From Clostridia bacterium (GTDB lineage: Bacteria; Bacillota_A; Clostridia; Christensenellales; Borkfalkiaceae): DNA of 16,871 nt. Positions 765 through 16,871 of the stretch are shown here, piece after piece; the first letter of the stretch is position 1; each line of letters opens with the position of its first letter. The notes beneath the pieces are model-generated. The model was not told where the DNA came from and did no database searches. It saw only the letters and a list, made by a program, of their open reading frames with translations. The stretch is from NCBI GenBank assembly GCA_017504735.1, contig JAFVQP010000079.1, positions 1-16,871 on the forward strand, written 5' to 3'. The position numbers were made by a program, and so were the translations under genes.

Positions 765-774
765 CGGAGCGAAA

Positions 775-4700: not shown

Positions 4701-5342
4701 AAATTCTTACCTTACTTCAAAGATAGGACGTTTAATTGCTCAATGCTTAGCGACTACGAAGAAGATGAGGAAACGGGTAGAAAAACCTATCATAATATTG
4801 AAGATGGTCAGCAGATCACGATGGGTGGTATGATTTCAGACTTTAAGAAGTTAAAAACGCGTAGCGGTTCGTTTATGGCGTTTGTAACGGTAGAGGATTT
4901 GTTTGGCTCGATTGAGTGTGTATGCTTCCCTAAAATTTACGAACGGATTCGTAACTTTTTGGAAAGTGACCGCGTCGTATCCTTGTCGGGTAAAATCAGT
5001 ATTGAAGATGAAAAACCGCCTGCAATTATCGTTGATAAAATGTGGGAATTTAACTTGGATGAAGTAGAGGAAAAGACGGCTGCGGCGACAAATGCAAAGG
5101 CGGCTCCTGTTAATGTCCAAAAATCGGATGCGGAGAAGCGTTTGTGGCTGAATATTACAGGGATGGAAGAGGTAGACGTTGAAGAACTGCTTGAAACCCT
5201 TTCTTATTATCCTGGGGAAACGGTTGTATGCTTCGTGCAAAATGGTAAAAAGATGCTTTGTTCGCACAAAGTAAATCCAAATAAGGCACTCTTTGCGGAG
5301 CTTGCTACATTTTTGCCGGAAAATTGCATTAAATTTATTTAA
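1731..5342 (+). CDS. dnaE: DNA polymerase III subunit alpha (DnaE)
   Basis: This 1203-residue protein is the replicative C-family polymerase, slightly longer than many homologues. The N-terminal PHP domain (about 1-270) carries what look like all its metal ligands: HLH at 8-10, DH at 41-42, E67, H84, H174 and D202/H204. The polymerase core has the GPGRGSG motif (359-365), the catalytic PDFDVDF (400-406) and a third acidic residue at D584 in KMDFL. An OB-fold lies near 1020-1110, followed by a short C-terminal tail. A lysine- and glutamate-rich stretch at about 478-510 looks like an insertion before the LEGMPKNTSEHAAG segment. The protein is DnaE type, not PolC: no exonuclease domain interrupts the PHP domain. 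The start ATG overlaps the whiA stop; a GGAAG at 1722-1726 is the ribosome site. Confidence 0.97.
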   Translation: MTDFVHLHLHTEYSLLDGAAKVDDLIDHLVKNEIDTCAITDHGNMYASLYFAEECVKKGIKYIIGCELYAVDNHLDKRPGKNEHIVLLAKNKTGYKNIVKLDSLSFIDGYYGGKPRISYDLIKQYSEGVICLSACLAGRIPQLLLRGDYEGAKAWALEMKGVFGEDFYIELQDHGIAEQRQILPDLIKLARELDIQMVATNDVHYIEKDDWEAHEILLCIQTKSTLAAPKMRFDEHEFYMKSGDEMLEIFNYVPEAISNTRVIANKIEEPVFDITPKGDPIRDTSLIPLYKPDDGSTSPDYLTRLTWEGLPKRYAEITDTIRERANYELGIIISMGFADYFLIVWDYINWSRLNGIPVGPGRGSGVGSIVAYSIGITDVDPLKYDLIFERFLNPDRVSMPDFDVDFCTKRRYETIEYVREKYHPENVAQIVTFGTLASRAVIKDVGRVMGVPYSETDKVAKLMDGKSTIGELLGLKIPKLEKQLEDPSLSEEKRGELTKKLKEQKDKKNPEFIEVYETNEELHRVIDMGLKLEGMPKNTSEHAAGVVICNKILADNVPLARNGDDIVTQFDMKEVEAVGMLKMDFLALTTLTDIQNTLEYIKIGHGVDIDFNKIGVDVPEAYQLISSGDTDAVFQLEQGGMKKFMKDLQPNCLEDLIAGISLYRPGPMDFIPTYIRNKHNPELIVYDTPFLEPILKNSYGVIVYQEQVMQIFQQLAGYTYGQADLVRRAMAKKKKKELMEQKDKFIYGAPAENISGCVSKGIPAEVAAKIFGDMESFASYAFNKSHAAAYAVVAYRTAYLKHFYLKEFLAGILNDRIDKSDEVSKYIMYMKEKNISVLPPDINRSKDIFWVEGNGLRIGLGALRGVGQDAIASVIKEREENGLFKDFSDFATRCAKYINKRIVESLIYAGAFDCFGYNRAQVAAVYEEVLTRVNAMEKQKGGAQISLFGEFIEEQAIEIQYPNIPEFETMEKLSKEKSVLGVYVSGHPFEKFLPYFKDRTFNCSMLSDYEEDEETGRKTYHNIEDGQQITMGGMISDFKKLKTRSGSFMAFVTVEDLFGSIECVCFPKIYERIRNFLESDRVVSLSGKISIEDEKPPAIIVDKMWEFNLDEVEEKTAAATNAKAAPVNVQKSDAEKRLWLNITGMEEVDVEELLETLSYYPGETVVCFVQNGKKMLCSHKVNPNKALFAELATFLPENCIKFI

Positions 5343-5359
5343 AGGTTAAAAAATACTAG

Positions 5360-5376
5360 AAAAGCTTTGCTTTTTT
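5360..5376 (+). terminator. Weak hairpin plus T-run after dnaE (possible terminator)
   Basis: AAAAGC (5360-5365) can pair with GCTTTT (5369-5374) across a 3-base loop, and six T residues occupy 5371-5376. The stem is short and AT-rich, and it overlaps the -35 box of the pfkA promoter, so it may be fortuitous. No other terminator is visible after dnaE. Confidence 0.3.
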
Positions 5377-5395
5377 ATGACAATTTTGCTATAAT
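5367..5395 (+). promoter_or_regulatory. pfkA promoter, extended -10
   Basis: A TTGCTT -35 box (5367-5372) is separated by 17 bases from a perfect TATAAT (5390-5395). A TG one base upstream of it (5387-5388) makes an extended -10. Transcription should start near 5402, giving a leader of roughly 20 bases that contains the ribosome site AGAGGTG (5411-5417). Confidence 0.8.
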
Positions 5396-5423
5396 ATATT
5401 GGTACAAATGAGAGGTGTAAAGT

Positions 5424-6383
5424 ATGAAAAGAATTGGTTTATTGACGAGCGGCGGTGACGCTCCTGGTATGAATGCGGCAATCCGCGCAGTTGTACGTTC
5501 GGGCATCTTCTTTGGTATGGAAGTGTACGGTATCGAACGTGGTTATGCGGGTTTGATTGAAGATAACGTTATGAAGATGGAGATGCGTAGCGTTTCCAAT
5601 ATTGTACAATGTGGTGGTACTCGTTTAAGAACGGCAAGATGTTTAGAGATGTTGACGGTAGAAGGTCAAAAGAAAGCGTTGGATACCTTGGAAAAACACG
5701 GTATAGATGGTTTGGTTGTTATTGGGGGCGACGGTTCGTTTAAGGGCGCGAAAGTCCTTAGCGAATATGGTGTGCCGACTATCGGTATTCCTGGTACGAT
5801 TGACAACGACATTGAATATACCGATTATACCCTTGGCTTTGATACAGCGGTAAATACGTGTCTTGATATCATCAATAAATTGCGTGATACGATGACTTCG
5901 CACGAACGCGTGTCCGTTGTAGAGGTAATGGGCAGACATTGCGGAGATATCGCGTTGTATAGCGGTATTGCATCGGGCGCGGAAATCATCGTTGTACCAG
6001 AACTTCCCTTTAATATGGACGAAATCGCTTCGCGAATTAATCGTTCTCGTGCGCAAGGCAAACATTCGAATATTATTGTTGTTGCGGAAGGTGTTATGAG
6101 TGCGGAAAAATTCGCAAATCAGTTGCAACAGGTAACCGAATATTCTGTTCGTCCTACTTGTATTGGTCACGTACAGCGCGGCGGTTCGCCTACGATGTCG
6201 GATAGAATGTTGGCTGCACAATTTGGTAATAAGGCGGTTCGTTTGCTTAACGAAGGTATTGGTAATCGTGTGGTTGGTATTCGTGATAATAAAATTATCG
6301 ATATGGATATTATCGAGGCAGTTTCGATGAAAAAGACGTTTAATTACGAATTGTATGAAACCCTTCAAATGATTTCTATGTAA
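5424..6383 (+). CDS. pfkA: ATP-dependent 6-phosphofructokinase
   Basis: This 319-residue enzyme phosphorylates fructose 6-phosphate to fructose 1,6-bisphosphate in glycolysis. It aligns by eye with E. coli PfkA almost without gaps, so numbering carries over. The ATP motif GGDGS (101-105) with G104, and PGTIDND with G124, mark the ATP-dependent rather than the pyrophosphate-dependent type. Catalytic and sugar-phosphate residues D127, D129, R162, R171, E222, R243, H249 and R252 are present. In the effector site, R21, R25, R154, E187 and K213 are kept, but position 54 is Met, 211 is Gln and 214 is His, so regulation by ADP and phosphoenolpyruvate may differ. The gene is monocistronic, with its own promoter and a strong terminator. 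The ATG at 5424 has an AGAGGTG six bases upstream. Confidence 0.97.
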   Translation: MKRIGLLTSGGDAPGMNAAIRAVVRSGIFFGMEVYGIERGYAGLIEDNVMKMEMRSVSNIVQCGGTRLRTARCLEMLTVEGQKKALDTLEKHGIDGLVVIGGDGSFKGAKVLSEYGVPTIGIPGTIDNDIEYTDYTLGFDTAVNTCLDIINKLRDTMTSHERVSVVEVMGRHCGDIALYSGIASGAEIIVVPELPFNMDEIASRINRSRAQGKHSNIIVVAEGVMSAEKFANQLQQVTEYSVRPTCIGHVQRGGSPTMSDRMLAAQFGNKAVRLLNEGIGNRVVGIRDNKIIDMDIIEAVSMKKTFNYELYETLQMISM

Positions 6384-6389
6384 AAAAGG

Positions 6390-6419
6390 ATAAGGTTGCT
6401 TCGGCGACCTTATTTTTTT
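6390..6419 (+). terminator. Intrinsic terminator of pfkA
   Basis: A 10-bp stem (6390-6399 with 6404-6413, including one G-T pair) is closed by a TTCG tetraloop and followed by a run of T residues to 6419. It starts 7 bases after the pfkA stop codon. Confidence 0.93.
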
Positions 6420-6450
6420 ATAATTTTCACATAAAAAATTCGTTTTGGTA

Positions 6451-6479
6451 TTGCAATTTTTGGGTATTTAATGTATAAT
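6451..6479 (+). promoter_or_regulatory. Promoter of the 1-phosphofructokinase-like gene
   Basis: TTGCAA (6451-6456), a 17-base spacer and TATAAT (6474-6479) form a sigma-A-type promoter. A second overlapping TATAAT sits at 6479-6484. The leader of roughly 35 bases holds the ribosome site AAGGGGAAG (6506-6514). Confidence 0.75.
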
Positions 6480-6521
6480 ATAATAGAGGCGCAAAAAGGC
6501 GCGGTAAGGGGAAGTTTTTAG

Positions 6522-7445
6522 ATGATTTTAAGTGTTTGTATGAGTCCTTGTATCGACGTGACGGTAGAGCTTGACGAGTTTAAGGTGGGAAAAACGAACG
6601 TTGTAAAACGCAAGGCTTTATCTTTGGGTGGTAAAGCCTTAAACGTAGCCATTGGGGTGAAACGTTTGGGGGGTAGCCCGTATCTGACAGGGATAATGTA
6701 TAAGGAAAATGGATTCATGTTTGAAAATGCCTTAAACAAGGAAGACGTTCCTTTTACGTTTATTTGGAATGATGGCAGAGTACGAGAAAATTATAAATTT
6801 ATAGATAGGCGTGCTATGTTGACAGAAGTAAACGATGTTGGGCAAGAAATTGCGCCGCAAACCGCGAAAGAAATGCTTGCTGCGGTCAGCGCGTTGTCTT
6901 CCCGTAGTAGCGTAACGGTTTTATCGGGCGGACTTCCTCGTGGATTGGATACTTCTTACTATGCAGATTTGGTGAAAGCGGTGGATAATCGTTCTTTAAA
7001 GATCGTGGACGCATCGGGACAGCGCATATTTGCGGCATTAAACGAGGGAGTGGATTTGGTAAAGCCGAATATTGACGAGCTAGAGGATGCAATAGGTCGT
7101 GCAATTACTTCCAAAGAAGATATGCTGACAGGTTGTTACGAGTTGTTGGATAGAGGGGCAAAAGTAGTATTGCTTTCCCTTGGTAGAAAGGGGGCAATCA
7201 TTACAGACGGGACACATTCGTACCATTGTAGAAGCATCAACGTTGCAGTCAACTCTACGGTTGGTGCAGGGGATGCAATGGTTGCAGCTGCTGCCATAGG
7301 ATTAGAACAATGCGCGCCGTTGTCTGAGATTTTACGGACGGGGGTTGCTGCTGGTACTGCAAACGTTATGACGGTAGGGCAGGTATCCTTTACGGAAGAC
7401 AAATACAACGAAGTATTGTCCACTTTAGAGGTGAAAGAAATTTAA
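6522..7445 (+). CDS. PfkB-family sugar kinase, probably 1-phosphofructokinase (FruK/LacC-like)
   Basis: This 307-residue protein belongs to the PfkB (ribokinase) fold. Signature 1 is SLGGKALNVA (34-43), where the usual family form is GGKGINVA. SGGLPRG (135-141) and KPNIDELE (181-188) follow. Signature 2 is NSTVGAGDAMVA (244-255) with catalytic base D251. The NSTVGAGD form is typical of the FruK/LacC branch, which phosphorylates fructose 1-phosphate or tagatose 6-phosphate, rather than of ribokinase (DTTGAGD). The substrate region RVRENYK (86-92) is not the standard FruK sequence, so specificity is uncertain. No fructose PTS genes or FruR-type regulator are nearby. It has its own promoter; no intrinsic terminator is visible after it, so some read-through into the next unit is possible. 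Confidence 0.82.
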   Translation: MILSVCMSPCIDVTVELDEFKVGKTNVVKRKALSLGGKALNVAIGVKRLGGSPYLTGIMYKENGFMFENALNKEDVPFTFIWNDGRVRENYKFIDRRAMLTEVNDVGQEIAPQTAKEMLAAVSALSSRSSVTVLSGGLPRGLDTSYYADLVKAVDNRSLKIVDASGQRIFAALNEGVDLVKPNIDELEDAIGRAITSKEDMLTGCYELLDRGAKVVLLSLGRKGAIITDGTHSYHCRSINVAVNSTVGAGDAMVAAAAIGLEQCAPLSEILRTGVAAGTANVMTVGQVSFTEDKYNEVLSTLEVKEI

Positions 7446-7484
7446 CATTTATTGAAAAAAATGTAGAAAATAGGCGAAAATTTA

Positions 7485-7513
7485 TTGCCTAAAACTGGAA
7501 AATTGTATATAAT
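7485..7513 (+). promoter_or_regulatory. Promoter of the cysteine-rich protein/DUF308 unit
   Basis: TTGCCT (7485-7490), 17 bases, then TATAAT (7508-7513). The predicted start near 7520 leaves a leader of about 60 bases that contains a perfect inverted repeat. The -35 box overlaps the right arm of a TAGGC/GCCTA inverted repeat (7471-7475 and 7487-7491). Confidence 0.7.
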
Positions 7514-7536
7514 AAATATCATAAAATAAGATTTGG

Positions 7537-7559
7537 TGCAAAAAAAGGAGTTTTTTGCA
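7537..7559 (+). promoter_or_regulatory. Leader hairpin with AGGAG in its loop
   Basis: TGCAAAAAA (7537-7545) is perfectly complementary to TTTTTTGCA (7551-7559), enclosing a 5-base AGGAG loop. It lies between the promoter and the true ribosome site of the cysteine-rich gene (AAGGAG, 7566-7571). The stem is nearly all A-T, so its stability as RNA is modest. It could be a leader element, an operator, or chance in an AT-rich gap. Confidence 0.4.
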
Positions 7560-7580
7560 TATAATAAGGAGCGTGTGACA

Positions 7581-7775
7581 ATGGATTTTAAGACACAGCA
7601 GGAACAGTTTGACAGTAAAAAATGGTATGACAGCCTTTGCGCTGGTGAGGATATGTGCGGTAAATACGATTTTTGTATTAAATGCTGTAAAACGGAAAAA
7701 TATCCTTGCGCTAAGGCGGCGCACAGATACAACAACAATTACGTTCGCATTGCTGTAATCCGTCGCCATAGATAA
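7581..7775 (+). CDS. Small cysteine-rich protein of unknown function (64 residues)
   Basis: The start is the ATG at 7581, with AAGGAG nine bases upstream; an in-frame TTG at 7533 lies in the leader hairpin region and lacks a ribosome site. The 64-residue product has six cysteines in 24 residues: C20, C26, C32, C35, C36 and C43 (spacing C-x5-C-x5-C-x2-CC-x6-C). A basic tail (RIAVIRRHR) ends it. There is no signal peptide or membrane segment, so it is probably cytoplasmic and may bind zinc or an iron-sulfur cluster. I recognise no family. It precedes the DUF308-like membrane protein by 18 bases and shares its transcript. That it is a real gene rests on the promoter, a good ribosome site, the cysteine spacing and the operon position. 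Confidence 0.72.
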   Translation: MDFKTQQEQFDSKKWYDSLCAGEDMCGKYDFCIKCCKTEKYPCAKAAHRYNNNYVRIAVIRRHR

Positions 7776-7793
7776 GCGCGAAAAGAGGTGTAA

Positions 7794-8273
7794 ATGAAAA
7801 AAACCGAACGAATTATAGCGGCGGTACTTACAATGGTGGTTGGTATTTTATTGATTGCCATGCAAGATAAATTCATCGGCGTGTTAATGTCGATCGCAGG
7901 GGCTTGCTTGATTGTCCTCGGTGTGGTGGATTTATGTCATCGATACGTTCCGCCTGCGGTGGTGAAAATCATTTCGGGTATTTTGATTATCGTATGTGGG
8001 TGGGTACTTGTGGAAGCGGTGCTTTATATCATTGCGGCAATGCTGCTGATTGCAGGGATTTTACTACTGTACGATAAAATAAAAAAGCGTGTAACGTGTG
8101 ATACCGTTTTTAAAACCGTGTTAGAATATGCATTACCTTCAGTGTTTATTGTAATCGGTTGTGTGTTATTGTTTCATCAAGCGTTTGCAATTGAAATTAT
8201 ATTTGTAATAACAGGTATTTTGACTTTGCTAGACGGTACAATATTATTACTGGAAGCATTTGAAGAAGAATAA
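7794..8273 (+). CDS. Six-helix membrane protein, DUF308/HdeD-like
   Basis: This 159-residue, very hydrophobic protein has six predicted membrane segments at about 6-22, 27-46, 56-72, 73-92, 113-129 and 131-150. A basic loop (YDKIKKR) follows the fourth, and the C-terminus is acidic. The paired short helices with Gly-rich turns (GILLIA, GVLMSIAGACLIVLG, GILIIVCG) resemble the DUF308/HdeD-like family, named after E. coli HdeD, whose biochemical role is unknown. The ATG at 7794 has a GAGGTG just upstream. It lies 18 bases after the cysteine-rich gene and ends 5 bases before a strong terminator, so the two form a complete two-gene operon. The membrane topology is clear; the family call is likely; the function is unknown. 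Confidence 0.8.
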   Translation: MKKTERIIAAVLTMVVGILLIAMQDKFIGVLMSIAGACLIVLGVVDLCHRYVPPAVVKIISGILIIVCGWVLVEAVLYIIAAMLLIAGILLLYDKIKKRVTCDTVFKTVLEYALPSVFIVIGCVLLFHQAFAIEIIFVITGILTLLDGTILLLEAFEEE

Positions 8274-8278
8274 TTTTT

Positions 8279-8307
8279 AAACCTTGTCTATACGGCAAGG
8301 TTTTTTT
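8279..8307 (+). terminator. Intrinsic terminator of the DUF308 unit
   Basis: A 10-bp stem (8279-8288 with 8294-8303, one G-T pair) has a 5-base TATAC loop, and a T-run continues to 8307. It begins 5 bases after the stop codon. Confidence 0.92.
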
Positions 8308-8312
8308 GTTTT

Positions 8313-8340
8313 GGCGGGGTGTTTTCCCCGCCTTTACTTT
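8313..8340 (+). terminator. Second GC-rich hairpin, possible back-up terminator
   Basis: GGCGGGG (8313-8319) pairs perfectly with CCCCGCC (8326-8332) across a TGTTTT loop, followed by an interrupted T tract (TTTACTTT). It sits 5 bases beyond the first terminator. The all-GC stem makes it the strongest 7-bp hairpin in the window; the imperfect T tract makes termination less sure. Confidence 0.6.
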
Positions 8341-8369
8341 GTAAAGACTATAAAATGATAAAAATTTAT

Positions 8370-8385
8370 CGATTTAACGATTTAA
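8370..8385 (+). repeat. Tandem 8-bp repeat upstream of the large-operon promoter
   Basis: CGATTTAA occurs twice in direct tandem (8370-8377 and 8378-8385), about 26 bases upstream of the -35 box at 8411. The position suits an activator site, but the repeat is short and AT-rich and could be chance. Confidence 0.4.
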
Positions 8386-8410: not shown

Positions 8411-8439
8411 TTTGTGTTTGGGGGAAAGTATGCTATAAT
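8411..8439 (+). promoter_or_regulatory. Promoter of the dehydrogenase-fumarase-Hdr-Flx operon, extended -10
   Basis: A TATAAT (8434-8439) is preceded by TGC (8431-8433), giving the same TGCTATAAT extended -10 as pfkA. The -35 region is TTTGTG (8411-8416, 17-base spacer) or TTGTGT (8412-8417, 16-base spacer), a weak match that suits an extended -10 promoter. The predicted start is near 8446, leaving a leader of about 83 bases. Confidence 0.75.
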
Positions 8440-8452
8440 AGAGTTGTATAAT

Positions 8453-8489
8453 TGCGTAAGCTTGGGATAGTGCGCCCAATACTTGCGTA
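8453..8489 (+). promoter_or_regulatory. Structured 5' leader hairpin of the operon
   Basis: Bases 8453-8460 pair with 8482-8489 (8 bp, two G-U pairs) and 8462-8466 with 8475-8479 (5 bp), with a small internal loop and an 8-base apical loop. It would begin about 7 bases after the predicted transcription start. It matches no riboswitch I recognise and has no T-run, so it is not an intrinsic terminator. A role in mRNA stability or as a protein-binding site is possible. Confidence 0.5.
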
Positions 8490-8528
8490 TAGAAGTTGGA
8501 AAAAATTAAACAAATGGAGATAAAAATT

Positions 8529-9479
8529 ATGAACAACAAAGTGACAATCATCGGTGCAGGTTCGGTAGGTGCTACGGTAGCATACACCTTGGTGACGACG
8601 GGCTCGGTTTCGGAAATCGTATTGATTGACGTAAACGAAGCAAAAGCTAAAGGGGAAGCGCTTGACATGATTCAGGCTACGCCTTACCTTTACCCTGTAA
8701 AAGTTTATTTCGGTACCTATGAAGATGCGGTTGGTTCGGACATGGTTATCGTAACGTCGGGTGTAGGCAGAAAGCCTGGTCAATCTCGTATCGATTTGAC
8801 GCAAATCAACGTTAATATCTTGAAGAGCATCGCTCCTCAAATCGTAAAATATGCGCCTGATGCATTGTATATTTTCGTTGCAAACCCCGTTGACGTACTC
8901 ACCTACGTATTCTGCAAAATTACGGGTATCCCCAAGAACCGTGTAATCGGTACGGGTTGTACGCTTGACAGCATTCGTTTGAGAACTCGCCTTTCCGAAT
9001 TGTACTCGGTAAATCAACAGCAAGTACACGCATACGTTTTGGGCGAACACGGCGATTCTTCCTTTGTCGCTTGGTCCACGGCAAACATTTCTGGTATCCC
9101 TCTTGATGAATTCGAAGGTACTTTGACGGCAAAAGAAGGGGTAAAGGTATCTCCTTACACGCATGAAGAAGTGGAAGAATACGTTAAGAAATCGGGTGGT
9201 AAAATTATTGCAGGCAAAGGCGCAACCTTCTACGGTATTGCTACTTCCGTAATGAAGATTGTAAACGCTGTTTATGCAAATGCAAATACGGTTTTGCCCG
9301 TTTCCAGCGTACTTGATGGTGAATATGGCATTTCCGACGTTGCTCTTTCCACGCTTTGCGTAATTGGTAAAAATGGTATTGTAACCACCTTGACGCCGAA
9401 GCTTTCCGATGAGGAACTTGGAAAGATGAAAAACAGTGCGGAAATGCTTAAGGGCGTTATCGCACAAATCGAAATCTAA
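8529..9479 (+). CDS. L-lactate/malate dehydrogenase family enzyme (LDH-like, Arg at the specificity position)
   Basis: This 316-residue NAD-dependent 2-hydroxyacid dehydrogenase starts at the ATG at 8529, with GGAGA eight bases upstream. In-frame starts at 8496 (TTG) and 8514 are less well placed. GAGSVGATVA (9-18) and D34 form the NAD site. The catalytic residues of the LDH/MDH family are present: R87, N119, D147, R150 and H174 (in GEHGDSSF). The backbone is LDH-like (EHGDSS; KGATFYGIA with T233). However, position 81, which corresponds to the canonical Gln102 of LDH, is Arg (GRKPGQSR), the residue found in malate dehydrogenases. I therefore infer oxaloacetate/malate as a likely substrate, supported by fumC 23 bases downstream. 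True LDH activity is not excluded. It is the first gene of the operon. Confidence 0.88.
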   Translation: MNNKVTIIGAGSVGATVAYTLVTTGSVSEIVLIDVNEAKAKGEALDMIQATPYLYPVKVYFGTYEDAVGSDMVIVTSGVGRKPGQSRIDLTQINVNILKSIAPQIVKYAPDALYIFVANPVDVLTYVFCKITGIPKNRVIGTGCTLDSIRLRTRLSELYSVNQQQVHAYVLGEHGDSSFVAWSTANISGIPLDEFEGTLTAKEGVKVSPYTHEEVEEYVKKSGGKIIAGKGATFYGIATSVMKIVNAVYANANTVLPVSSVLDGEYGISDVALSTLCVIGKNGIVTTLTPKLSDEELGKMKNSAEMLKGVIAQIEI

Positions 9480-9502
9480 ATTAAAATAACGGAGTAAAAA
9501 TT

Positions 9503-10879
9503 ATGGAATACCGTATTGAAAAAGACACGATGGGTGAAATGCAGGTCCCTGCGGATAGATACTGGGCTGCGCAAACGCAGAGAAGTTATCAAAATTTCCG
9601 CATCGGTGACGAAATTATGCCCCGTGAAATAACGAGGGCGTTTGGTATCTTGAAAAAGGCAGCTGCCCTTGCAAACTGCAAGCTTGGTAAGCTTCCTGAA
9701 GAAAAGAAAGATGCAATTTGCGCGGCTTGCGACGAAGTGATTTCTGGCGAATTGAACGGACACTTCCCCTTGGTTGTATGGCAAACGGGCAGCGGTACGC
9801 AGTCGAATATGAATGCGAATGAAGTTATCGCAAATCGCGGTAATGAAATCGCGGGTAAGAAATTGCTTCACCCTAATGACGATATCAACAAGAGTCAAAG
9901 CTCCAACGATACCTTCCCTACGGCAATGCATATTGCGGCTGTTGTTGCAATTGAAGACAAACTTTTCCCTGCAATGGACAAGTTGATTGCTACCTTAAAG
10001 CGTTTGGAAGCAGAAAACGAAGGAATTGTTAAGAGTGGTAGAACGCACTTGCAAGATGCAGTTCCCATCGCATTCTCGCAAGAAATCAGCGGTTGGACGA
10101 ATATGGTGGAAAAGGCAAAGGCTCAGCTTCAGTTGGCGTTGCCTGGCTTGAAAGAACTTGCACTTGGCGGTACGGCTGTTGGTACGGGCTTGAACGCCCC
10201 CAAAGGCTTCGCTGAGGAAGTAGCGGCTCAAGTTTCCATATTGACAGGTAAAACCTTTATTACGGCTGAAAATAAATACCATGCATTGACGGCGAAGGAT
10301 GAACTCGTATTTGCGCATGGTGCATTGAAAGCGCTTGCTTGCAACCTTATGAAGATTGCAAACGACGTTCGTTGGTTGGCGAGTGGTCCTCGTGATGGCC
10401 TTGGCGAAATTTTCATCCCTGAAAATGAACCCGGTTCCTCGATCATGCCTGGTAAAGTAAATCCTACGCAGTGCGAATCGATGACGATGGTTGCCGTACA
10501 GGTTATGGCAAACGACGTAGCAGTAGGGGTAGGTGCTTCGCAGGGTAACTTTGAACTTAACGTGTTCATGCCCGTAATCATCTACAACTTCTTGCAGTCG
10601 GTACGTTTGCTTGCGGATGGTATTGTATCCTTTGAAAGCAACTGTGTAACGGGTATTAAGGCAAATAAGGAAAAAATGCATCATAACCTTTACAACTCTT
10701 TGATGCTTGTAACCGCACTTAATCCTTACATCGGTTATGAAAATGCGGCGAAGACGGCGAAGAAGGCATATAAGGAAAACATTTCTTTGAAAGAAGCTTG
10801 CGTTGCGCTTGGTTTCTTGACGGCTGAAAAGTTCGACGAAGTATTCCGTCCTGAAGAAATGGCATACCCTCAAAAATAA
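9503..10879 (+). CDS. fumC: Class II fumarate hydratase (fumarase C)
   Basis: This 458-residue enzyme of normal FumC length interconverts malate and fumarate without an iron-sulfur cluster. It carries the fumarase/aspartase superfamily motifs GSGTQSNMN (97-105), SSNDTFPT (133-140), GRTHLQDA (179-186, with the general acid-base-associated H182) and the signature [15 protein letters not shown] (311-325). S313 is the likely catalytic base and K318/N320 are substrate-binding residues. [11 protein letters not shown] favours fumarase over aspartase. The ATG at 9503 has a GGAG eight bases upstream. The gene lies 23 bases after the LDH/MDH-like gene and 30 bases before hdrB, placing malate/fumarate chemistry in the same transcript as the Hdr-Flx electron-transfer genes. 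An oxygen-stable fumarase is unremarkable in itself; its operon position is the notable part. Confidence 0.95.
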
Positions 10880-10909
10880 CGGAAGAAATTTACCAAAGGT
10901 GCTAAAAAT

Positions 10910-11689
10910 ATGAAAATCAGTTATTATCCCGGTTGTACGCTTAGGACGAAGGCAAAGGAATTGGACGTAACCGCCCGTCTTTGCGCAGAAACCTTGGGTG
11001 TAGAAATGGAGGAAATTGAAAATTGGCAATGTTGCGGTGCGGTCTATAAAATGGGCACTGATGAAATCGCAACGAAGTTGTCTGCGGTACGTGCGCTTGC
11101 GGCGGCAAAGAAAAACGGTGGTAAGCTTCTTACCCTTTGCTCGGCTTGTCACAACGTAATTAAGCGTGCCAACGAAGACATGAAAACGAATGAAGATATT
11201 TGCTTTCGTGCCAACAACTACTTGAAACTTGACGAACCCTATAAAGGGGAAACAGAAGTTATCCACTATCTTGAAATGTTGAAAAATATTGTAGGATTTG
11301 ACAATATCAAGAAAGCGGTGGTAAATCCCATCAATAGAAAGATTGGTGCGTATTACGGTTGCTTATTACTTCGTCCTAGCGGCGTAATGGCATTCGACAA
11401 TCCTGAAAATCCTACCATTATTGAGGATTTTATTCGCGCAATTGGCGGCACGCCCGTTGTATATCCGTTCCGTAACGAATGTTGCGGTGCTTACGTATCA
11501 CTGAAGAATAGTGAATTGCCGAAGAAAAAGAGCGAAAAGGTGCTTGCAAGCGCGAAAGAAAAGGGCGCTGAAGAAGTGATTACTGCTTGTCCGCTTTGCC
11601 TTTATAATTTACAGGCAAACGGCGGCGATATTTTGCCTGTTAAGTATTTCACGGAACTGCTTGCAGAAGCATTGGGGGTGAAGGCATGA
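10910..11689 (+). CDS. hdrB: Heterodisulfide reductase subunit B homologue (HdrB)
   Basis: This 259-residue protein contains two complete CCG cysteine-rich domains: C9, C41-C42-G, C77-x2-C80, and C151, C191-C192-G, C227-x2-C230. In methanogen HdrB these bind two noncubane [4Fe-4S] clusters that split the CoM-S-S-CoB disulfide. Bacterial homologues act on other, often unknown, acceptors. No methanogen coenzymes are expected here, so the acceptor is open. Similar CCG domains occur in thiol:fumarate reductase TfrB and in some succinate dehydrogenase membrane-anchor subunits, which is relevant given the adjacent fumarase. The ATG at 10910 has AAAGGTG eight bases upstream; the end overlaps hdrC by 4 bases (ATGA). 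No cysteine of either motif is missing, so the protein should be functional. Confidence 0.9.
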   Translation: MKISYYPGCTLRTKAKELDVTARLCAETLGVEMEEIENWQCCGAVYKMGTDEIATKLSAVRALAAAKKNGGKLLTLCSACHNVIKRANEDMKTNEDICFRANNYLKLDEPYKGETEVIHYLEMLKNIVGFDNIKKAVVNPINRKIGAYYGCLLLRPSGVMAFDNPENPTIIEDFIRAIGGTPVVYPFRNECCGAYVSLKNSELPKKKSEKVLASAKEKGAEEVITACPLCLYNLQANGGDILPVKYFTELLAEALGVKA

Positions 11690-12072
11690 CGAAAGAAGAA
11701 CGCATTGAAAATCTCAATAGATTAAGCGGCACTGACGTAAGAAAATGTATGAAGTGCGGCAAATGCTCTGGTCGTTGTCCTGCGTTTAATGATATGGACA
11801 TTAAGCCCCATCAATTCGTATCGATGCTTTGCCAAGGTAAGATTGATCAGTTGCTTGAAAGTCAAGCGATTTGGAATTGTCTTTCCTGCATGGCTTGCGT
11901 AGAGCGTTGTCCTCGCGGTGTTGCGCCTGCGGCAGTGGTGGAAGCGGTGCGTGATACGGTTGTCCGTATGCAGGGTGCAAACGGCATTAAAGCTGAGGAA
12001 ATTCCTCCCATTGTGGACGAGCTTATACCTCAACAGCTGCTTGTCAGCGCGTATAGAAAGTATAACAAGTAA
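11686..12072 (+). CDS. hdrC: Heterodisulfide reductase subunit C homologue (HdrC)
   Basis: This 128-residue soluble ferredoxin-like protein has two [4Fe-4S] motifs: C21-x2-C24-x2-C27-x3-C31-P and C65-x2-C68-x2-C71-x3-C75-P. HdrC carries electrons from the HdrA flavin to the HdrB clusters. It is shorter than many HdrC proteins and has no membrane segment, so this is the cytoplasmic HdrABC type and not the membrane-bound HdrDE type. The start overlaps the hdrB stop by 4 bases, which suggests coupled translation and equal stoichiometry. Confidence 0.9.
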   Translation: MTKEERIENLNRLSGTDVRKCMKCGKCSGRCPAFNDMDIKPHQFVSMLCQGKIDQLLESQAIWNCLSCMACVERCPRGVAPAAVVEAVRDTVVRMQGANGIKAEEIPPIVDELIPQQLLVSAYRKYNK

Positions 12073-12076
12073 CTCC

Positions 12077-12091
12077 CCGAAGTGATTTCGG
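12077..12091 (+). other. Intercistronic hairpin between hdrC and hdrA
   Basis: CCGAA (12077-12081) pairs with TTCGG (12087-12091) across a 5-base loop in the 57-base hdrC-hdrA gap, the widest gap within the operon. No T-run follows, so it is not an intrinsic terminator. It could mark an mRNA processing or stability point, or be chance. Confidence 0.35.
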
Positions 12092-12129
12092 TTATTAAGA
12101 AAAAATTCTAAAGAAAGAGAGTGAACAAA

Positions 12130-14121
12130 ATGCAAAGAATAGGTGTTTTTATTTGTTGGTGCGGCAGCAATATTGCGGCTACGGTAGATGTAGTAAAAGT
12201 CGCGGAAACCATTAAACACGAGCCTGGCGTTGTTTTCGCAGCAAACTATCAATATATGTGCTCCGAAAATGGTCAGCAGCTCATCAAGCAAGCCATTAAA
12301 GAACATAATCTTACGGGCATCGTTGTAGGCGCTTGTTCGCCTAGAATGCACGAAGCAACCTTCCGTAAGGCAGCTGAAGAAGCAGGTCTCAACCCTTATA
12401 TGGTTGAAATTGCAAACATTCGTGAACATTGTTCGTGGATCCACAAGGATATGGAAGAAGCTACTGAAAAAGCGGTTATCCTTGTTCGTACGGCAATTGC
12501 AAAAGTGAAATTGAACGCACCCTTGACGGCAGGCGAAAGCCCCGTTGCAAAGCGTGCGCTCGTTATCGGTGGCGGTATTGCAGGTATCCAAGCGGCTTTG
12601 GATATCGCAGACGCAGGCTTTAAGGTTGATATTGTAGAAAAGAATGCAACCATCGGCGGCAGAATGGCTCAGCTCGATAAGACGTTCCCCACGCTCGACT
12701 GCTCCGCTTGTATTCTTACCCCGAAAATGGTAGATTGTGCGCAGCACGAAAATATTGAAATCCTTTCCTACTCCGAAGTGGACGATGTAAAGGGCTTCGT
12801 AGGTAACTTCAACGTTAAAATTCGCCGCAAGGCAAGATACGTTGACGAAACGAAGTGTACGGGTTGTAAGCTTTGTATGGAAAAATGTCCTTCGAAGAAG
12901 GGCTTGAACGAGTTCAATATGAACTTGAATACGCGTACGGCAATTCACATTCCCTTCGCGCAGGCAATCCCTAACGTTGCGGTAATCGACTCGACACAAT
13001 GTCTTAAATTTAAGACGGGTAAATGCGGTATTTGTCAAAAATTCTGCGAAGTTGGCGCAATCAACTTTGAACAGCAGGATACGTTTGTAGAACGTCAATA
13101 TGGTGCAATTGTCGTTGCAACCGGATTCAAGCCCATCGCACTTGACAACTTCAACGAATATGGCTATTCGGACAACAAGGACGTTATCACGTCGCTTGAA
13201 TTGGAACGTTTGATGAATGCGGCTGGCCCTACCAATGGTGTTCTTCTTCGTCCTTCCGACAACGAACATCCTCACGTTATTACCTTCATTCAATGTGTAG
13301 GCTCGCGTGATACCAGCGGTTGTGGTAAACCTTACTGCTCCAAAATCTGCTGTATGTACACGGCAAAACACGCAATGATGATTCGTGAAAAATACCCCGA
13401 TACGCAGGTAAACGTATTCTATATCGATATTCGTACCCCTGGTAAGAATTATGATGAATTCTACCGTCGCGCGGTTGAACAATACGGTGTAAACTATATC
13501 AAGGGTATGGTTGGTAAAGTTTACAATGAAAACGGTAAGTTGATGGTACAAGGTTCTAACCTTATCGATAACGAACAAGTTACGATTGAATCCGACCTTG
13601 TTGTTTTGGCAACGGCAATCGAACCGGAACCTTCCGTAAGAAAGGTTGCGACCTTGTTGACGGCAAGTATCGACACCAACAATTTCTTGACGGAATCGCA
13701 CGCGAAGCTTCGTCCCGTAGAAAGTCCTACGGCAGGTGTATATCTTGCAGGTGTATGTCAAGGTCCTAAGGATATTCCTGAAACTGTTTCGCAGGCATCC
13801 GCTTGTGCTGCAAAGGTTATCGGTTTGCTTGTAAAAGATAAGTTGAAGACGAACCCTTGCGTAGCTTCGCCTGATGAAATGATGTGTAACGGTTGCAGTC
13901 AGTGTGCAAACGTTTGCGCATACGGTGCAATTACTTATGTAGAAAAAGAATTCCGTATGCCTGGTGGCAAGACGGAAATCCGTCGCGTAGCATCTGTAAA
14001 CCCTGCAGTTTGTCAAGGTTGCGGCGCATGTACGGTAACTTGTCCTTCGGGCGCGATGGACTTGAAGGGCTTTAGCTCGAAGCAAATTATGTCGGAGGTG
14101 GAAGCAATATGCAAGATGTAA
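12130..14121 (+). CDS. hdrA: Heterodisulfide reductase subunit A homologue (HdrA), flavin-bifurcating core
   Basis: I start this 663-residue protein at the ATG at 12130 (MQRIGVFICWCG), with GAGAGTG six bases upstream. An in-frame GTG at 12121 would add three residues and has a poorer ribosome site. The N-terminal domain has the C9-x-C11-G motif. A dinucleotide fold (GGGIAG, 147-152) with a thioredoxin-reductase-like body holds the FAD that, in characterised HdrA, bifurcates electrons. Iron-sulfur motifs are: C243-x2-C246-x2-C249-x3-C253-P; C291, C299, C302, C306; and two C-terminal ferredoxin clusters, C586/C589/C592/C596 and C628/C631/C634/C638. The DCSACI (190-195) and CVGSRD...CSKICC (389-408) segments are typical of the family. 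The inferred role is to split electron pairs between ferredoxin and HdrBC. It overlaps the next gene by 13 bases. Confidence 0.95.
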   Translation: MQRIGVFICWCGSNIAATVDVVKVAETIKHEPGVVFAANYQYMCSENGQQLIKQAIKEHNLTGIVVGACSPRMHEATFRKAAEEAGLNPYMVEIANIREHCSWIHKDMEEATEKAVILVRTAIAKVKLNAPLTAGESPVAKRALVIGGGIAGIQAALDIADAGFKVDIVEKNATIGGRMAQLDKTFPTLDCSACILTPKMVDCAQHENIEILSYSEVDDVKGFVGNFNVKIRRKARYVDETKCTGCKLCMEKCPSKKGLNEFNMNLNTRTAIHIPFAQAIPNVAVIDSTQCLKFKTGKCGICQKFCEVGAINFEQQDTFVERQYGAIVVATGFKPIALDNFNEYGYSDNKDVITSLELERLMNAAGPTNGVLLRPSDNEHPHVITFIQCVGSRDTSGCGKPYCSKICCMYTAKHAMMIREKYPDTQVNVFYIDIRTPGKNYDEFYRRAVEQYGVNYIKGMVGKVYNENGKLMVQGSNLIDNEQVTIESDLVVLATAIEPEPSVRKVATLLTASIDTNNFLTESHAKLRPVESPTAGVYLAGVCQGPKDIPETVSQASACAAKVIGLLVKDKLKTNPCVASPDEMMCNGCSQCANVCAYGAITYVEKEFRMPGGKTEIRRVASVNPAVCQGCGACTVTCPSGAMDLKGFSSKQIMSEVEAICKM

Positions 14122-14564
14122 CCACGGAAAAGAAAGAATTTACCCCGAACATCGTAGCTTTTTGCTGTAACTGGTGTTCGTATGCAGGTGCTGACCTTGC
14201 AGGTTCTAGCCGTTTGAGCTATCCTGCAAACGTAAAAATTATTCGCGTACCTTGCTCCTGCCGTGTAAACCCCACCTTCATTTTAAAGGCGTTCCTGCAG
14301 GGGGCTGACGGCGTAATTATTTGCGGTTGTCACCCTGGCGACTGCCATTACGTAACGGGTAACTATTACACGAGAAGAAGAATTGCAATGCTTTACAGCT
14401 TCCTTAATTATATGGGTATTGAAAAAGAACGTACCCGTTTAGAATGGGTATCCGCAGCTGAAGGCGCACGTTTCTCCGCCGTTATGAACGATTTTGTAAA
14501 AACGGTAACGGAGCTTGGTGAAAACAAGCGTCTTACCGACCTCAGAGTAAAGGAGGGCGAATAA
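14109..14564 (+). CDS. flxD: MvhD/FlxD-like iron-sulfur protein (hydrogenase delta-subunit family)
   Basis: This 151-residue protein carries the family hallmark CCNWCSYAGADLAG (19-32), then CGCHPGDCHY (72-81) and LEWVSAAEG. In methanogens MvhD holds a [2Fe-2S] cluster and passes electrons from hydrogenase to HdrA; in Flx complexes the equivalent FlxD links the NADH-oxidising part to HdrA. No hydrogenase gene is visible, and the FlxA-like gene downstream supports the second reading. An additional cysteine, C51, follows C49 (PCSCRVNP) where I recall family members having Gly (CSGRV). The start lies within hdrA with a strong GGAGGTGG upstream (14094-14101), and the stop is one base from the next start, so translation is probably coupled on both sides. 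Confidence 0.9.
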   Translation: MQDVTTEKKEFTPNIVAFCCNWCSYAGADLAGSSRLSYPANVKIIRVPCSCRVNPTFILKAFLQGADGVIICGCHPGDCHYVTGNYYTRRRIAMLYSFLNYMGIEKERTRLEWVSAAEGARFSAVMNDFVKTVTELGENKRLTDLRVKEGE

Positions 14565-14565
14565 G

Positions 14566-15543
14566 ATGAAAGATGTTGAATTGAAGATGCTTGAACGCGC
14601 AAAAGAATTGCTTTCCAGTGGTGAAGTAGCGCGTGTAATCGGTTGGAAGAAAGGGGAATTTGAATTTGACCCTGTTCCCGCTTCCTTTGAAACAGTAGAA
14701 GAGCTTGACGGCTTCGTTTACAATTACTTCTGCGGTGCAAACCTCTCTAAATACCTTATTCAAATGAGCAAAAAGGAAGGAAAAACGGCAGTATTCTTGA
14801 AACCCTGCGATACCTACAGCTTTAACCAGCTTGTAAAAGAACATCGTGTAAAACGTGAAAACATTTACGTGATCGCGGTAGAATGTCTTGCAAAACTTGA
14901 TATTAACAAAATCAAGGCGCAAGGTGTTACGGGTGTAACCGGCGTAGAAGTAAATGGTAAGGAAGTAAAGGTTGCCTCCCTCTATGGCGAAGTTGTATTG
15001 AATAAGGAAGACGTTGTATTGTCGAAGTGTGCTGTTTGTGAAAAGACGCATCAGGCAAAAGATGAAGAAATTATTTTGCACGAACGCCCTGAACGCGACG
15101 TTAATCGTTTTGCGGAAGTGGAAGCTCTTGAAGCTATGTCCGAAGATGAACGTTTCGCATTCTGGAGAAACGAGCTTTCGAAATGTATCCGTTGTAATGC
15201 TTGTCGCAACGTATGTCCTGCATGTTCCTGTGTGAAGTGTGTATTCGATAATCCTGCATCGGGTATTTCGGCAAAAGCAAACGATGATAAGTTTGAAGAA
15301 CAGTTGTTCCACATCATTCGTGCATTCCACGTTGCAGGGCGTTGTACCGACTGTGGCGAATGCTCGCGCGTGTGTCCTCAAAACATTCCTTTGCACCTTT
15401 TGAACAGAAAGTTTATTAAGGATATCGATACCTTCTACGGTGAATATCAGGCAGGGGAAACGGCAGAAGGCAAAACGCCTTTGACCGAATATACGGAAGG
15501 CGATACTGAACCGAACGACGTTTTTAACGGGGAGGCAAAATAA
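14566..15543 (+). CDS. flxC: FlxC-like protein: FrhB-like N-domain plus two [4Fe-4S] motifs
   Basis: In this 325-residue protein the N-terminal half has conserved cysteine motifs KPCD (79-82) and SKCAVCEK (153-160), resembling the F420-hydrogenase beta-subunit/dicluster family. The C-terminal half has C207-x2-C210-x2-C213-x3-C217-P, extra cysteines C220, C222 and C225, and C260-x2-C263-x2-C266-x3-C270-PQN. The C-terminal tail is acidic. It is probably an electron relay between the FlxA flavoprotein and FlxD/HdrA. The FlxC label follows from gene order (FlxD, this gene, a sulfhydrogenase/AsrA-like gene, FlxA) and is less sure than membership of the complex. A strong AAGGAGGG (14550-14557) precedes the ATG, and the stop shares one base with the next start (TAATG). 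Confidence 0.8.
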   Translation: MKDVELKMLERAKELLSSGEVARVIGWKKGEFEFDPVPASFETVEELDGFVYNYFCGANLSKYLIQMSKKEGKTAVFLKPCDTYSFNQLVKEHRVKRENIYVIAVECLAKLDINKIKAQGVTGVTGVEVNGKEVKVASLYGEVVLNKEDVVLSKCAVCEKTHQAKDEEIILHERPERDVNRFAEVEALEAMSEDERFAFWRNELSKCIRCNACRNVCPACSCVKCVFDNPASGISAKANDDKFEEQLFHIIRAFHVAGRCTDCGECSRVCPQNIPLHLLNRKFIKDIDTFYGEYQAGETAEGKTPLTEYTEGDTEPNDVFNGEAK

Positions 15544-16589
15544 TGTTAAAGATTGCAAAAGAAAGATTGAACGAACTGTATGCGAAGATTAATGAAAGCA
15601 TGGGTTTATTCCTTCCCATCAAACGTGCAGGTGAAGTAAATTACGCTGTGTGGGAAGAAGGGAAAGAGGTTTCCCTTGAGACCCTAAAGACGGTTAAATC
15701 CCCCAAGAATGCATTCTTCCCTCAAACGGAAAATATGATGAAGTTTAAGACGGAAGAGGGCAATTTGCAGGTTATTGACGTTCGTGAAAAATTGAGCGAA
15801 AAAATCGAAGCAAGACCCTTCGTTCTCTTTGGGGTAAAGGCTTGTGATTACAAGGCGATCGAGGTTCTTGATAAGGTATTTTTGGCGGATCCCGTGGATA
15901 CCTATTATCAAATGAGAAGAGAGGGCTCGACGATTGTTACGCTCGCTTGTTCTCGTCCTGAAGAAAGCTGTTTCTGTAAAGCTTTCGGTGTAGATGCAAC
16001 CTCGCCCCTTGGTGACGTTACCACTTGGATGGATGAAGCTTACCTTTATTGGCAGGCTAACACCGAAAAAGGTGAAAAGCTTACCGCTTTGGTAAATGAA
16101 TTGTTAGAAGAAGGCGGCGAAGCAGAAGTAGCAGCTCAAAAAGAAGCTACTGCTGCTATTATGGACAAATTGCCGTATTCTAACCTTAATTTGAGTAAAT
16201 TTAAGCCTGAAAACTTGAACGAATTGTTCAACGCGGCAGAATGGGAAGAATTGAGCGAGGCTTGCCTTGGCTGCGGTACTTGTACCTTTGTATGTCCTAC
16301 TTGTCAATGTTTCGATATTCGTGATATCAAGACGAAAGAAGGAGTGTTGCGTTATCGTTGTTGGGATTCCTGTATGTATTCCGACTTTACCCTGATGGCG
16401 CATGGCAACAGCCGTAACACACAAATGCAACGGTTCCGTCAAAGATTTATTCACAAGCTTGTTTACTATCCTTCGCAAAACGATGGTATGTATTCGTGTG
16501 TAGGTTGCGGACGTTGTTTGAATAAGTGTCCTCAAAACTTGAACATTGTCAAAGTAATTAAAACGTTGGGAGGGAAAAACAATGATTAA
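15543..16589 (+). CDS. flxB: FlxB-like protein: AsrA/HydB-type two-[4Fe-4S] electron-transfer subunit
   Basis: This 348-residue protein resembles the beta subunit of sulfhydrogenases and anaerobic sulfite reductase subunit A (AsrA), which pair with a flavin/NAD(P)H subunit like the one encoded next. The N-terminal half has KACD (99-102) and cysteines C136, C143 and C145. The C-terminal half has C241-x2-C244-x2-C247-x3-C251-P with C254 and C256, and C319-x2-C322-x2-C325-x3-C329-PQN. A Glu/Ala-rich linker lies at about 175-210. Its layout matches the FlxC-like neighbour, so the two look like old paralogues. Its likely role is to carry electrons from FlxA toward HdrA. The ribosome site is GGGGAGG just upstream; the end overlaps the next gene by 8 bases. 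Confidence 0.82.
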   Translation: MLKIAKERLNELYAKINESMGLFLPIKRAGEVNYAVWEEGKEVSLETLKTVKSPKNAFFPQTENMMKFKTEEGNLQVIDVREKLSEKIEARPFVLFGVKACDYKAIEVLDKVFLADPVDTYYQMRREGSTIVTLACSRPEESCFCKAFGVDATSPLGDVTTWMDEAYLYWQANTEKGEKLTALVNELLEEGGEAEVAAQKEATAAIMDKLPYSNLNLSKFKPENLNELFNAAEWEELSEACLGCGTCTFVCPTCQCFDIRDIKTKEGVLRYRCWDSCMYSDFTLMAHGNSRNTQMQRFRQRFIHKLVYYPSQNDGMYSCVGCGRCLNKCPQNLNIVKVIKTLGGKNND

Positions 16590-16871
16590 TGAAACTTTAA
16601 TTCCTAAAGTTGGCGTTGTAACGGATATTCGTAAAGATACTCCCGACGTAAAAACTTTCCGTGTAGTAGGGTTAGACGGTAAAAAGTTGTTCCAGCATAT
16701 GCCTGGCCAGTGCGCGATGGTTTCTATCCCTGGTGTCGGTGAATGTATGTTCTCGATTACCTCTTCGCCTACAAATGAAGAATATATGGAATTCTCCATC
16801 AAAAAGTGCGGTTGCGTTACCGAAGTATTGCATGCTTTAGAGGTTGGCGCACAGTTGACCGTTCGTGGCCC
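16582..16871 (+). CDS. flxA: FlxA-like FAD/NAD(P)H oxidoreductase (3' end cut by window edge)
   Basis: The frame opens at the ATG at 16582, 7 bases after a GGGAGGG (16568-16574), and is open to the window end, giving 96 full codons. The visible part is a ferredoxin-NADP-reductase-like FAD-binding barrel: TFRVVG, MPGQCAMVSIPG and ECMFSITSSP match the segments that in AsrB, HydG and FlxA read roughly PGQF..v.vpG.GEaPFSISS. The FAD phosphate motif region is here MFSITSS. In the Flx complex this subunit oxidises NADH. The nucleotide-binding domain that would show NADH versus NADPH preference lies beyond the window. Being last in a run of overlapping genes, it belongs to the same operon; whether more genes follow is not visible. 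Confidence 0.83.
   Translation, partial: MINETLIPKVGVVTDIRKDTPDVKTFRVVGLDGKKLFQHMPGQCAMVSIPGVGECMFSITSSPTNEEYMEFSIKKCGCVTEVLHALEVGAQLTVRG

Follow-up and report, generated by a model that had tools for sequence, protein, structure and literature searches.

A malate dehydrogenase-fumarase-HdrBCA-FlxDCBA operon in a Clostridia bacterium points to a soluble, probably electron-bifurcating NADH:fumarate reductase

The window analyzed here, a stretch of 16,871 nucleotides (nt) covering positions 1 to 16,871 of contig JAFVQP010000079.1 from a Clostridia bacterium (assembly GCA_017504735.1), ends in the operon mdh-fumC-hdrBCA-flxDCBA, whose nine tightly packed plus-strand genes (8529-16871) combine a malate dehydrogenase (MDH) and a class II fumarase with all seven subunits of an HdrABC-FlxABCD complex, flxA being cut by the window end and present as its 5' part only. 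In relatives, these genes are followed by a fumarate reductase, FrdBA, and we consider it probable that the products form a soluble NADH:fumarate reductase, HdrABC-FlxABCD-FrdBA, which would split electrons between fumarate and ferredoxin. Gene content, gene order, conserved ligands, and the active site are read directly; from these we infer complex formation, the electron route, bifurcation, export of the product, and a continuation of the window like that of its relatives.

An earlier note on this DNA had described nine close-packed genes on one strand, an enzyme resembling lactate dehydrogenase (LDH) or MDH and a class II fumarase followed by all seven Hdr/Flx subunits, and the coordinates together with Pfam and NCBIfam assignments bear this out (Table 1). 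It had also given gaps of 1 to 57 bases, or overlaps, between them; the tight packing stands, with computed gaps between -13 and 48 nt (mdh-fumC, 23; fumC-hdrB, 30; hdrB-hdrC, -4; hdrC-hdrA, 48; hdrA-flxD, -13; flxD-flxC, 1; flxC-flxB, -1; flxB-flxA, -8), whereas a gap of 57 would need a later hdrA start. As the note had stated, no DsrC, hydrogenase, or methanogen-cofactor family is found among the ten window proteins scanned.

The genes beyond flxA were read from relatives: a FlxB-seeded scan of species genomes gave at least 576 matches, and the best 80, hence the nearest relatives only, were used. Most are, by title, Clostridia metagenome-assembled genomes (MAGs) from the guts of herbivores; named cases include "Candidatus Scatosoma pullistercoris" and Blautia wexlerae. 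All 80 loci (L numbers; G numbers denote genomes) were annotated by comparison with the window's proteins plus six seed sequences taken from L004 and L078, and each feature was counted only where a locus had enough sequence. In two loci the sequence stops within flxB, and two more have fewer than 700 nt after flxA, one of these showing the start of frdB. In all 76 loci with room, frdB directly follows flxA, and frdA comes next in 70 of 70; the six loci with 700 to 2,400 nt after flxA have frdB in every case and part of frdA in five. For first-start open reading frames (ORFs) of L004, L010, and L022, the spacing is 12, -26, and -26 nt between flxA and frdB, 12, 11, and 11 nt between frdB and frdA, and 48, 53, and 53 nt between frdA and a permease. 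Where at least 4.2 kb follows flxA (61 loci), the next five genes include this permease, of the Asp-Al_Ex family (AspT/YidE type), in 51 loci and a class I fumarase in 17; 12 loci have the two together, and 5 have neither of them. Near relatives have frdBA flanked by flxA and mostly the permease, the unnamed ORFs having been scanned for a membrane anchor only in part. The permease beside frdA probably exports succinate. These neighborhoods support the note's proposal that the acceptor at HdrB lies on the malate/fumarate branch, by way of a separate FrdA-like flavoprotein, and we infer from the relatives that the window's own genome likewise continues with frdB and frdA.

FrdA retains the residues of the fumarate site and, in 107 of 108 sequences, has asparagine at the position of the histidine to which flavin adenine dinucleotide (FAD) is covalently bound. 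Its nearest NCBIfam model is TfrA, matched at 356.2 bits (332 for B. wexlerae) against a cut-off of 718, with about 85 extra N-terminal residues and the model's last 120 positions unmatched. L-Aspartate oxidase, NadB, was rejected as an identity for FrdA (280.7 bits against a cut-off of 452.75, with frdB directly before frdA). For the first 69 residues of FrdA, no aligned partner appears among the 50 PDB rows listed, and we claim no new fold. The asparagine also bears on the direction of the reaction. Hdr-type complexes are reversible in principle, so that succinate might be oxidized with reduction of ferredoxin and NAD+ (confurcation); enzymes without covalent FAD, however, are poor succinate oxidizers, and we hold a backward-running complex to be very improbable.

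The first gene most likely starts at ATG 8529 behind GGAG (8516-8519), as in relatives of 316 amino acids (aa); of the 46 loci in which an mdh ORF is called, 16 have this length and the rest range from 166 to 385 aa. NCBIfam names it L-lactate dehydrogenase (TIGR01771, 343.8 bits; cut-off, 303.55); this model passes for three relatives too, and NF004863, a malate dehydrogenase subfamily model, passes as well. The residue aligned to the LDH glutamine of 2zqy at LDH position 102 (residue 92 of the 327-aa ORF starting at 8496) is arginine in 46 of 46 sequences, the window's included. Exchange of glutamine for arginine at this position is the classical LDH-to-MDH switch; we therefore read the gene, in its operon context, as a malate dehydrogenase, which narrows the earlier "LDH/MDH-like," and reject L-lactate dehydrogenase despite the passing model. 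Public annotation may misname such mdh genes, given that TIGR01771 passes on proteins with the arginine.

MDH and fumarase recur at the head of the cluster. Among the 52 of the best 80 loci with at least 3 kb before hdrB, FumC adjoins hdrB in 31 (as MDH-FumC in 26) and MDH alone does so in 17, so that one or the other directly precedes hdrB in 48; the fumC-hdr linkage that the note had described is thus common in close relatives, and because the adjacency recurs, the arrangement is not a chance one. In 37 of the 43 loci open on both sides, either FumC lies upstream or FumAB downstream, and no locus has both. That two unrelated fumarases have each been recruited to this cluster, in different loci, indicates fumarate more strongly than either would alone. 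The distant FumAB-like genes of L045, on the opposite strand further upstream, were left out of these counts. Two loci stand apart: in L144, mdh sits after frdA, ahead of the permease, and the L050 contig, which bears a Sphaerochaetaceae label, has the cluster in the form with FumAB that otherwise comes from Lachnospiraceae and other Clostridia, either by transfer or through a binning error.

As for the Hdr-Flx subunits, HdrA aligns end to end (E = 1e-206) with 5odc_A, the HdrA subunit of a bifurcating heterodisulfide reductase; the FAD domain and Fe-S cysteines are present, and of its 33 cysteines, 28 are invariant across all 62 sequences compared. HdrB keeps all ten noncubane-cluster cysteines in 61 of 61 sequences, the window's among them, and the two 4Fe-4S motifs of HdrC, FlxD of the FlpD/MvhD family, FlxB, and FlxC are all present. 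In the window's fragment of FlxA, PF00970 falls just under its cut-off; the full-length protein (275 to 286 aa in five relatives) has PF00970, PF00175, and PF10418 in L004. By homology of HdrA and FlxABCD, the complex would carry out NADH-dependent ferredoxin reduction. The same complex might instead work without bifurcation, as a plain soluble conduit from NADH to FrdBA that leaves ferredoxin unreduced, and the model in print for Blautia luti does take a plain NADH-dependent fumarate reductase (PMC12773636, in part). A simple conduit would not need an HdrA with so many clusters, and we regard this alternative as unlikely, though less so than the other rivals.

Under the bifurcating reading, the cluster would serve the reductive branch from oxaloacetate through malate and fumarate to succinate in a fermenting clostridium, MDH and FumC supplying the fumarate that the soluble complex would reduce. 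FlxA would accept hydride from NADH, and FlxB, FlxC, and FlxD would relay electrons to the HdrA flavin, where they would be split: the downhill electron would pass through HdrC to the noncubane clusters of HdrB and on through FrdB and FrdA to fumarate, and the uphill electron would reduce ferredoxin. The net reaction would be 2 NADH + fumarate + Fd(ox) -> 2 NAD+ + succinate + Fd(red). With midpoint potentials (E0') of +33 mV for fumarate/succinate and -320 mV for NAD (PMC5861303) and a ferredoxin potential of -400 to -500 mV (PMC12773636, in part), we compute -68 kJ for the pair going to fumarate and a cost of 15 to 35 kJ for the pair going to ferredoxin, a net of about -33 to -53 kJ per fumarate.

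Two other acceptors were weighed. HdrB might act on a disulfide (DsrC/TusE-like or a small thiol), with FrdBA as a separate, co-regulated enzyme fed by the thiol, as in the thiol:fumarate reductase of methanogens; the ten cysteines kept in HdrB are those of disulfide-cleaving HdrB. In TfrB and in fumarate reductases of the SdhE type, CCG domains serve to conduct electrons, so that these cysteines do not require a disulfide. TfrB, moreover, has its own HdrB-type domain, whereas the two FrdB proteins scanned (about 224 aa) show no match to a CCG domain, and FrdB would thus need a partner such as HdrB. With no DsrC above cut-off in 20 genomes (one sub-threshold match), DsrC was rejected as the acceptor; small thiols stay a weak rival, and the disulfide route as a whole seems improbable. 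The note's main alternative had been methylene-tetrahydrofolate as acceptor via MetF/MetV, as proposed for Moorella. A MetF-family gene does occur in 11 of 13 genomes searched, but it lies on a different contig from the frd operon in G001, G002, and G003, and the place directly downstream of flxA is taken by frdBA. When the relatives' MetF proteins were compared with the ORFs of 120 neighborhood loci, none matched, one stray hit being to an RnfC-like seed piece (MetV itself was not searched for). We reject this partner, leaving it only a marginal chance.

As an answer to the bias of an FlxB-seeded sample, FrdA was used as a seed of its own (alignment A1, 4 rows) against 151 genomes of the order and 398 of the phylum. 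In the order, 22 genomes matched at E <= 1e-80, the weakest at 2.8e-280; in the phylum, 41 matched, 39 of them at E <= 7.6e-209 (the starting genome included) and the remaining two, taken as ordinary relatives, at about 1e-83 to 1e-86. Neighborhoods were drawn from 20 of the 21 other order genomes and, as 20 loci, from 19 other phylum genomes. The order flxA-frdB-frdA holds in 20 of 20 order loci; hdrA is visible in 18 of them, and the remaining two contigs stop before reaching it. At phylum level, hdr genes adjoin frdBA in only 10 of 20 loci and in several layouts: frdBA ahead of hdrBCA-flxDCBA (L171-L173, L175), hdrCBA-flxDCBA-frdBA (L179), hdrCB alone (L174), or a second, larger HdrA-like protein without flxAB (L167, L168, L170, L178; 1058 to 1489 aa in the three measured). 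FrdBA is therefore modular and, in the window's lineage, tied to Hdr-Flx. The large HdrA-like protein has Pyr_redox_2 and extra ferredoxin domains in L167 (1070 aa; L170, 1058 aa; L178, 1489 aa), and its replacing FlxA and FlxB could possibly mean a different NAD(P)H input. Scanned neighbors in the hdr-free loci include pyruvate carboxylase (L164), malic enzyme (L166), an MmgE/PrpD protein (L181), an isocitrate dehydrogenase-family protein (L182), a NapC-type cytochrome (L180), and a cytochrome b561-FeS protein (L183); in L180 and L183, the module is apparently wired to the membrane via cytochromes.

Several observations weigh against fumarate-linked bifurcation. The window ends inside flxA, before the place of the frd genes, and sequence alone does not show where the ferredoxin site lies. 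Half of the phylum loci (10 of 20) have FrdBA without neighboring hdr genes, so that FrdBA is not committed to Hdr; 6 of the 43 loci have no fumarase in the cluster, and 4 of the 52 have neither MDH nor FumC directly before hdrB. FastTree trees of 78 loci agree in their main Hdr and Frd clades but otherwise only in part: the Frd tree reproduces 23 of the 41 Hdr splits with good support and lacks the other 18, so that inheritance as one block is broad but not strict. Finally, openly licensed PMC papers yielded no biochemical proof of any such complex and no enzyme-level proof of bifurcation with fumarate, a search that does not establish its absence in print.

The ferredoxin and carbon context was read from six near-kin genomes (G001, G002, G003, G004, G007, G008; MAGs of unknown completeness). 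None of the six has an RnfD-family protein (13 of all 20 genomes searched do), rnfC above cut-off, a NiFe hydrogenase, or an ATP-dependent phosphoenolpyruvate carboxykinase (PEPCK); GTP-PEPCK occurs in five and an [FeFe] hydrogenase in all six. An RnfC-like protein of about 443 to 493 aa (152 to 170 bits; cut-off, 246) is encoded in G001, G002, G003, and G007, with no RnfD-family match in the genome. Genes for hydC-hydB with a whole or partial hydA, named by size, sequence, and a neighboring PF02906 match, are present in four (L192-L195); G004 has a hydB-sized ORF before hydA, and G007 only a 508-aa enzyme of single-subunit size. Given the lack of Rnf in these incomplete genomes, ferredoxin may feed the [FeFe] hydrogenase. 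A more tentative extension, to our mind possible yet doubtful, is that this clade, in which no Rnf or NiFe hydrogenase was found, runs a fumarate-powered H2 engine, in which ferredoxin from Hdr-Flx-FrdBA and NADH would yield H2 via a HydABC-type [FeFe] hydrogenase, one fumarate disposing of three NADH, and that FrdBA is an exchangeable terminal module which lineages dock to Hdr-Flx, a two-HdrA fusion type, HdrBC alone, or cytochromes. B. wexlerae has Rnf and, downstream of its frd-fum genes (L078), hydC-hydB-hydA-like genes (159, 626, and 562 aa); genes of 159 and 623 to 626 aa follow the frd-fum genes in L078 and L080. In B. luti, by contrast, hydA shows no expression (PMC12773636, in part), and HydABC is for this reason a less likely sink there.

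Table 1. Features of the window, with coordinates and the evidence for each
Feature	Position	Strand	Evidence
mdh: malate dehydrogenase, LDH-like sequence	8529..9479	+	Pfam/NCBIfam, alignment to LDH structures
fumC: class II fumarase	9503..10879	+	TIGR00979, 731.5 bits (cut-off, 664.75)
hdrB: two CCG domains, ten cluster-ligand cysteines	10910..11689	+	Pfam, alignment
hdrC: two 4Fe-4S motifs	11686..12072	+	Pfam/NCBIfam, motif conservation
hdrA: FAD/Fe-S subunit, predicted bifurcating type	12121..14121	+	Full-length alignment to 5odc_A
flxD: MvhD/FlpD-like linker	14109..14564	+	PF02662
flxC: 4Fe-4S protein	14566..15543	+	Pfam, motif conservation
flxB: 4Fe-4S protein, sulfhydrogenase-beta/AsrA-like	15543..16589	+	Pfam/NCBIfam
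flxA, 5' part (96 codons): FAD/NAD-binding NADH dehydrogenase subunit	16582..16871, runs past window	+	Pfam/NCBIfam
Two intrinsic terminator-like hairpins (8279-8303, 8313-8332)	8279..8332	+	3 found, mean of 0.5 in shuffles
26-bp element GATAAAAATTTATCGATTTARCGATT, upstream of promoter	8357..8382	+	Exact in window
Putative promoter TTGTGT-16-TATAAT, extended -10	8412..8439	+	Read from sequence

Upstream of the operon, the window (1-8273) holds a DUF308 gene and others that are presumably, by their sequence, a PHP-family gene, whiA, dnaE, pfkA, and a PfkB-family kinase; pfkA and the PfkB-family gene remain near the operon in many relatives. The terminator-like hairpins, the second of which is overlapped by a third, appear to close the DUF308 unit and to separate it from the operon. 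The single promoter that the note had placed before the nine genes is plausible: all 24 relatives checked carry TGnTATAAT ahead of mdh. The promoter tool, however, left this site unlisted, as its -35 matches too poorly; its single listed site, at 8220-8247, falls within the DUF308 gene, and one site is less than shuffled sequences yield. The element GATAAAAATTTATCGATTTARCGATT, probably an operator, recurs before the operon at no more than 3 mismatches in 19 of the best 80 loci, all 19 falling among the 24 with an mdh at least 65% identical and 280 nt upstream, and is single-copy in six of seven genomes searched. In G003, a second copy with 3 mismatches lies immediately upstream of hydC-hydB-hydA genes (L193), the only locus with the exact 20-base core before hydC; in G001 (L192), the core occurs with 4 mismatches, 87 nt before hydC, and near hydC in L194 and L195 it is absent at up to 5 mismatches. 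An operator common to the operon and a hydrogenase operon is a lead only. A Rex-type operator was unsupported (one match in 25 sequences, L008), an Rfam scan of the window gave nothing above threshold, and an HdrB search of viral contigs returned no locus.

Many fermenting clostridia are regarded as lacking quinones and membrane fumarate reductase, which makes their gain from forming succinate puzzling. If the bifurcating reading holds, a gut-type fermenter would turn malate into succinate and use this easy reaction to charge ferredoxin; a bifurcating soluble fumarate reductase would then raise fermenters' energy yield and alter ATP balances in print, and fumarate would become one of the few high-potential acceptors known for flavin-based electron bifurcation. 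The operon's presence in cultured B. wexlerae (L078) makes the question directly testable.

Among known systems, the HdrABC-FlxABCD of Desulfovibrio vulgaris, which is linked with DsrC and was, as Ramos is said to have found in 2015, tied to ethanol metabolism, shares all seven subunits with the window, where they are tied to MDH, fumarase, and, in relatives, FrdBA instead. The TfrAB of methanogens likewise joins CCG chemistry to a soluble fumarate reductase, and FrdA is closest to its TfrA model; here, however, FrdB, HdrB, and HdrC are separate proteins and FrdA stays below the TfrA cut-off. Unlike the membrane quinol:fumarate reductase FrdABCD, FrdA lacks the covalent-FAD histidine. In Gammaproteobacteria, reductive tricarboxylic acid cycle clusters have tfrAB interspersed with flxABCD-hdrABC, and direct electron flow from flx-hdr to TfrAB has been suggested (PMC6315080, in part); these are autotrophs with TfrAB-type enzymes and korABCD, whereas here FrdB has no HdrB domain and the hosts are likely fermenters. 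In B. wexlerae, frdBA stands behind hdrBCA-flxDCBA, a likeness to set beside the FrdAB of succinate-forming B. luti, whose frdAB is highly transcribed and whose glucose-grown extracts show 504 mU/mg of fumarate reductase (with reduced viologen) and 1070 mU/mg of MDH; that paper's main text has no hit for Hdr, Flx, or heterodisulfide (PMC12773636). The closest counterpart is the "succinate operon" of Pseudoclostridium thermosuccinogenes, which comprises fumarase, Flx-Hdr, fumarate reductase, and a possible transporter and for which fumarate-linked bifurcation has been proposed (PMC7282089, in part, citing a 2019 preprint, 10.20944/preprints201912.0288.v1, on a fumarate reductase potentially involved in bifurcation); it was about 4-fold up under CO2 limitation, not significantly for all subunits. 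Like the window, it has fumarase and Flx-Hdr in one cluster, its frdAB and transporter match those of the window's relatives, and the route from phosphoenolpyruvate via GTP-PEPCK to oxaloacetate, malate, fumarate, and succinate is the one described there. It differs in that the part of PMC7282089 drawn on names no MDH, whereas the window adds an LDH-like one, and in that P. thermosuccinogenes has Rnf, which the six near-kin genomes do not show. The idea is thus not new; what is added here is its breadth, the MDH assignment, and the lack of DsrC and, in six near-kin genomes, of Rnf, and the window's operon is likely another member of a known, still unproven kind of cluster in which fumarate would drive bifurcation.

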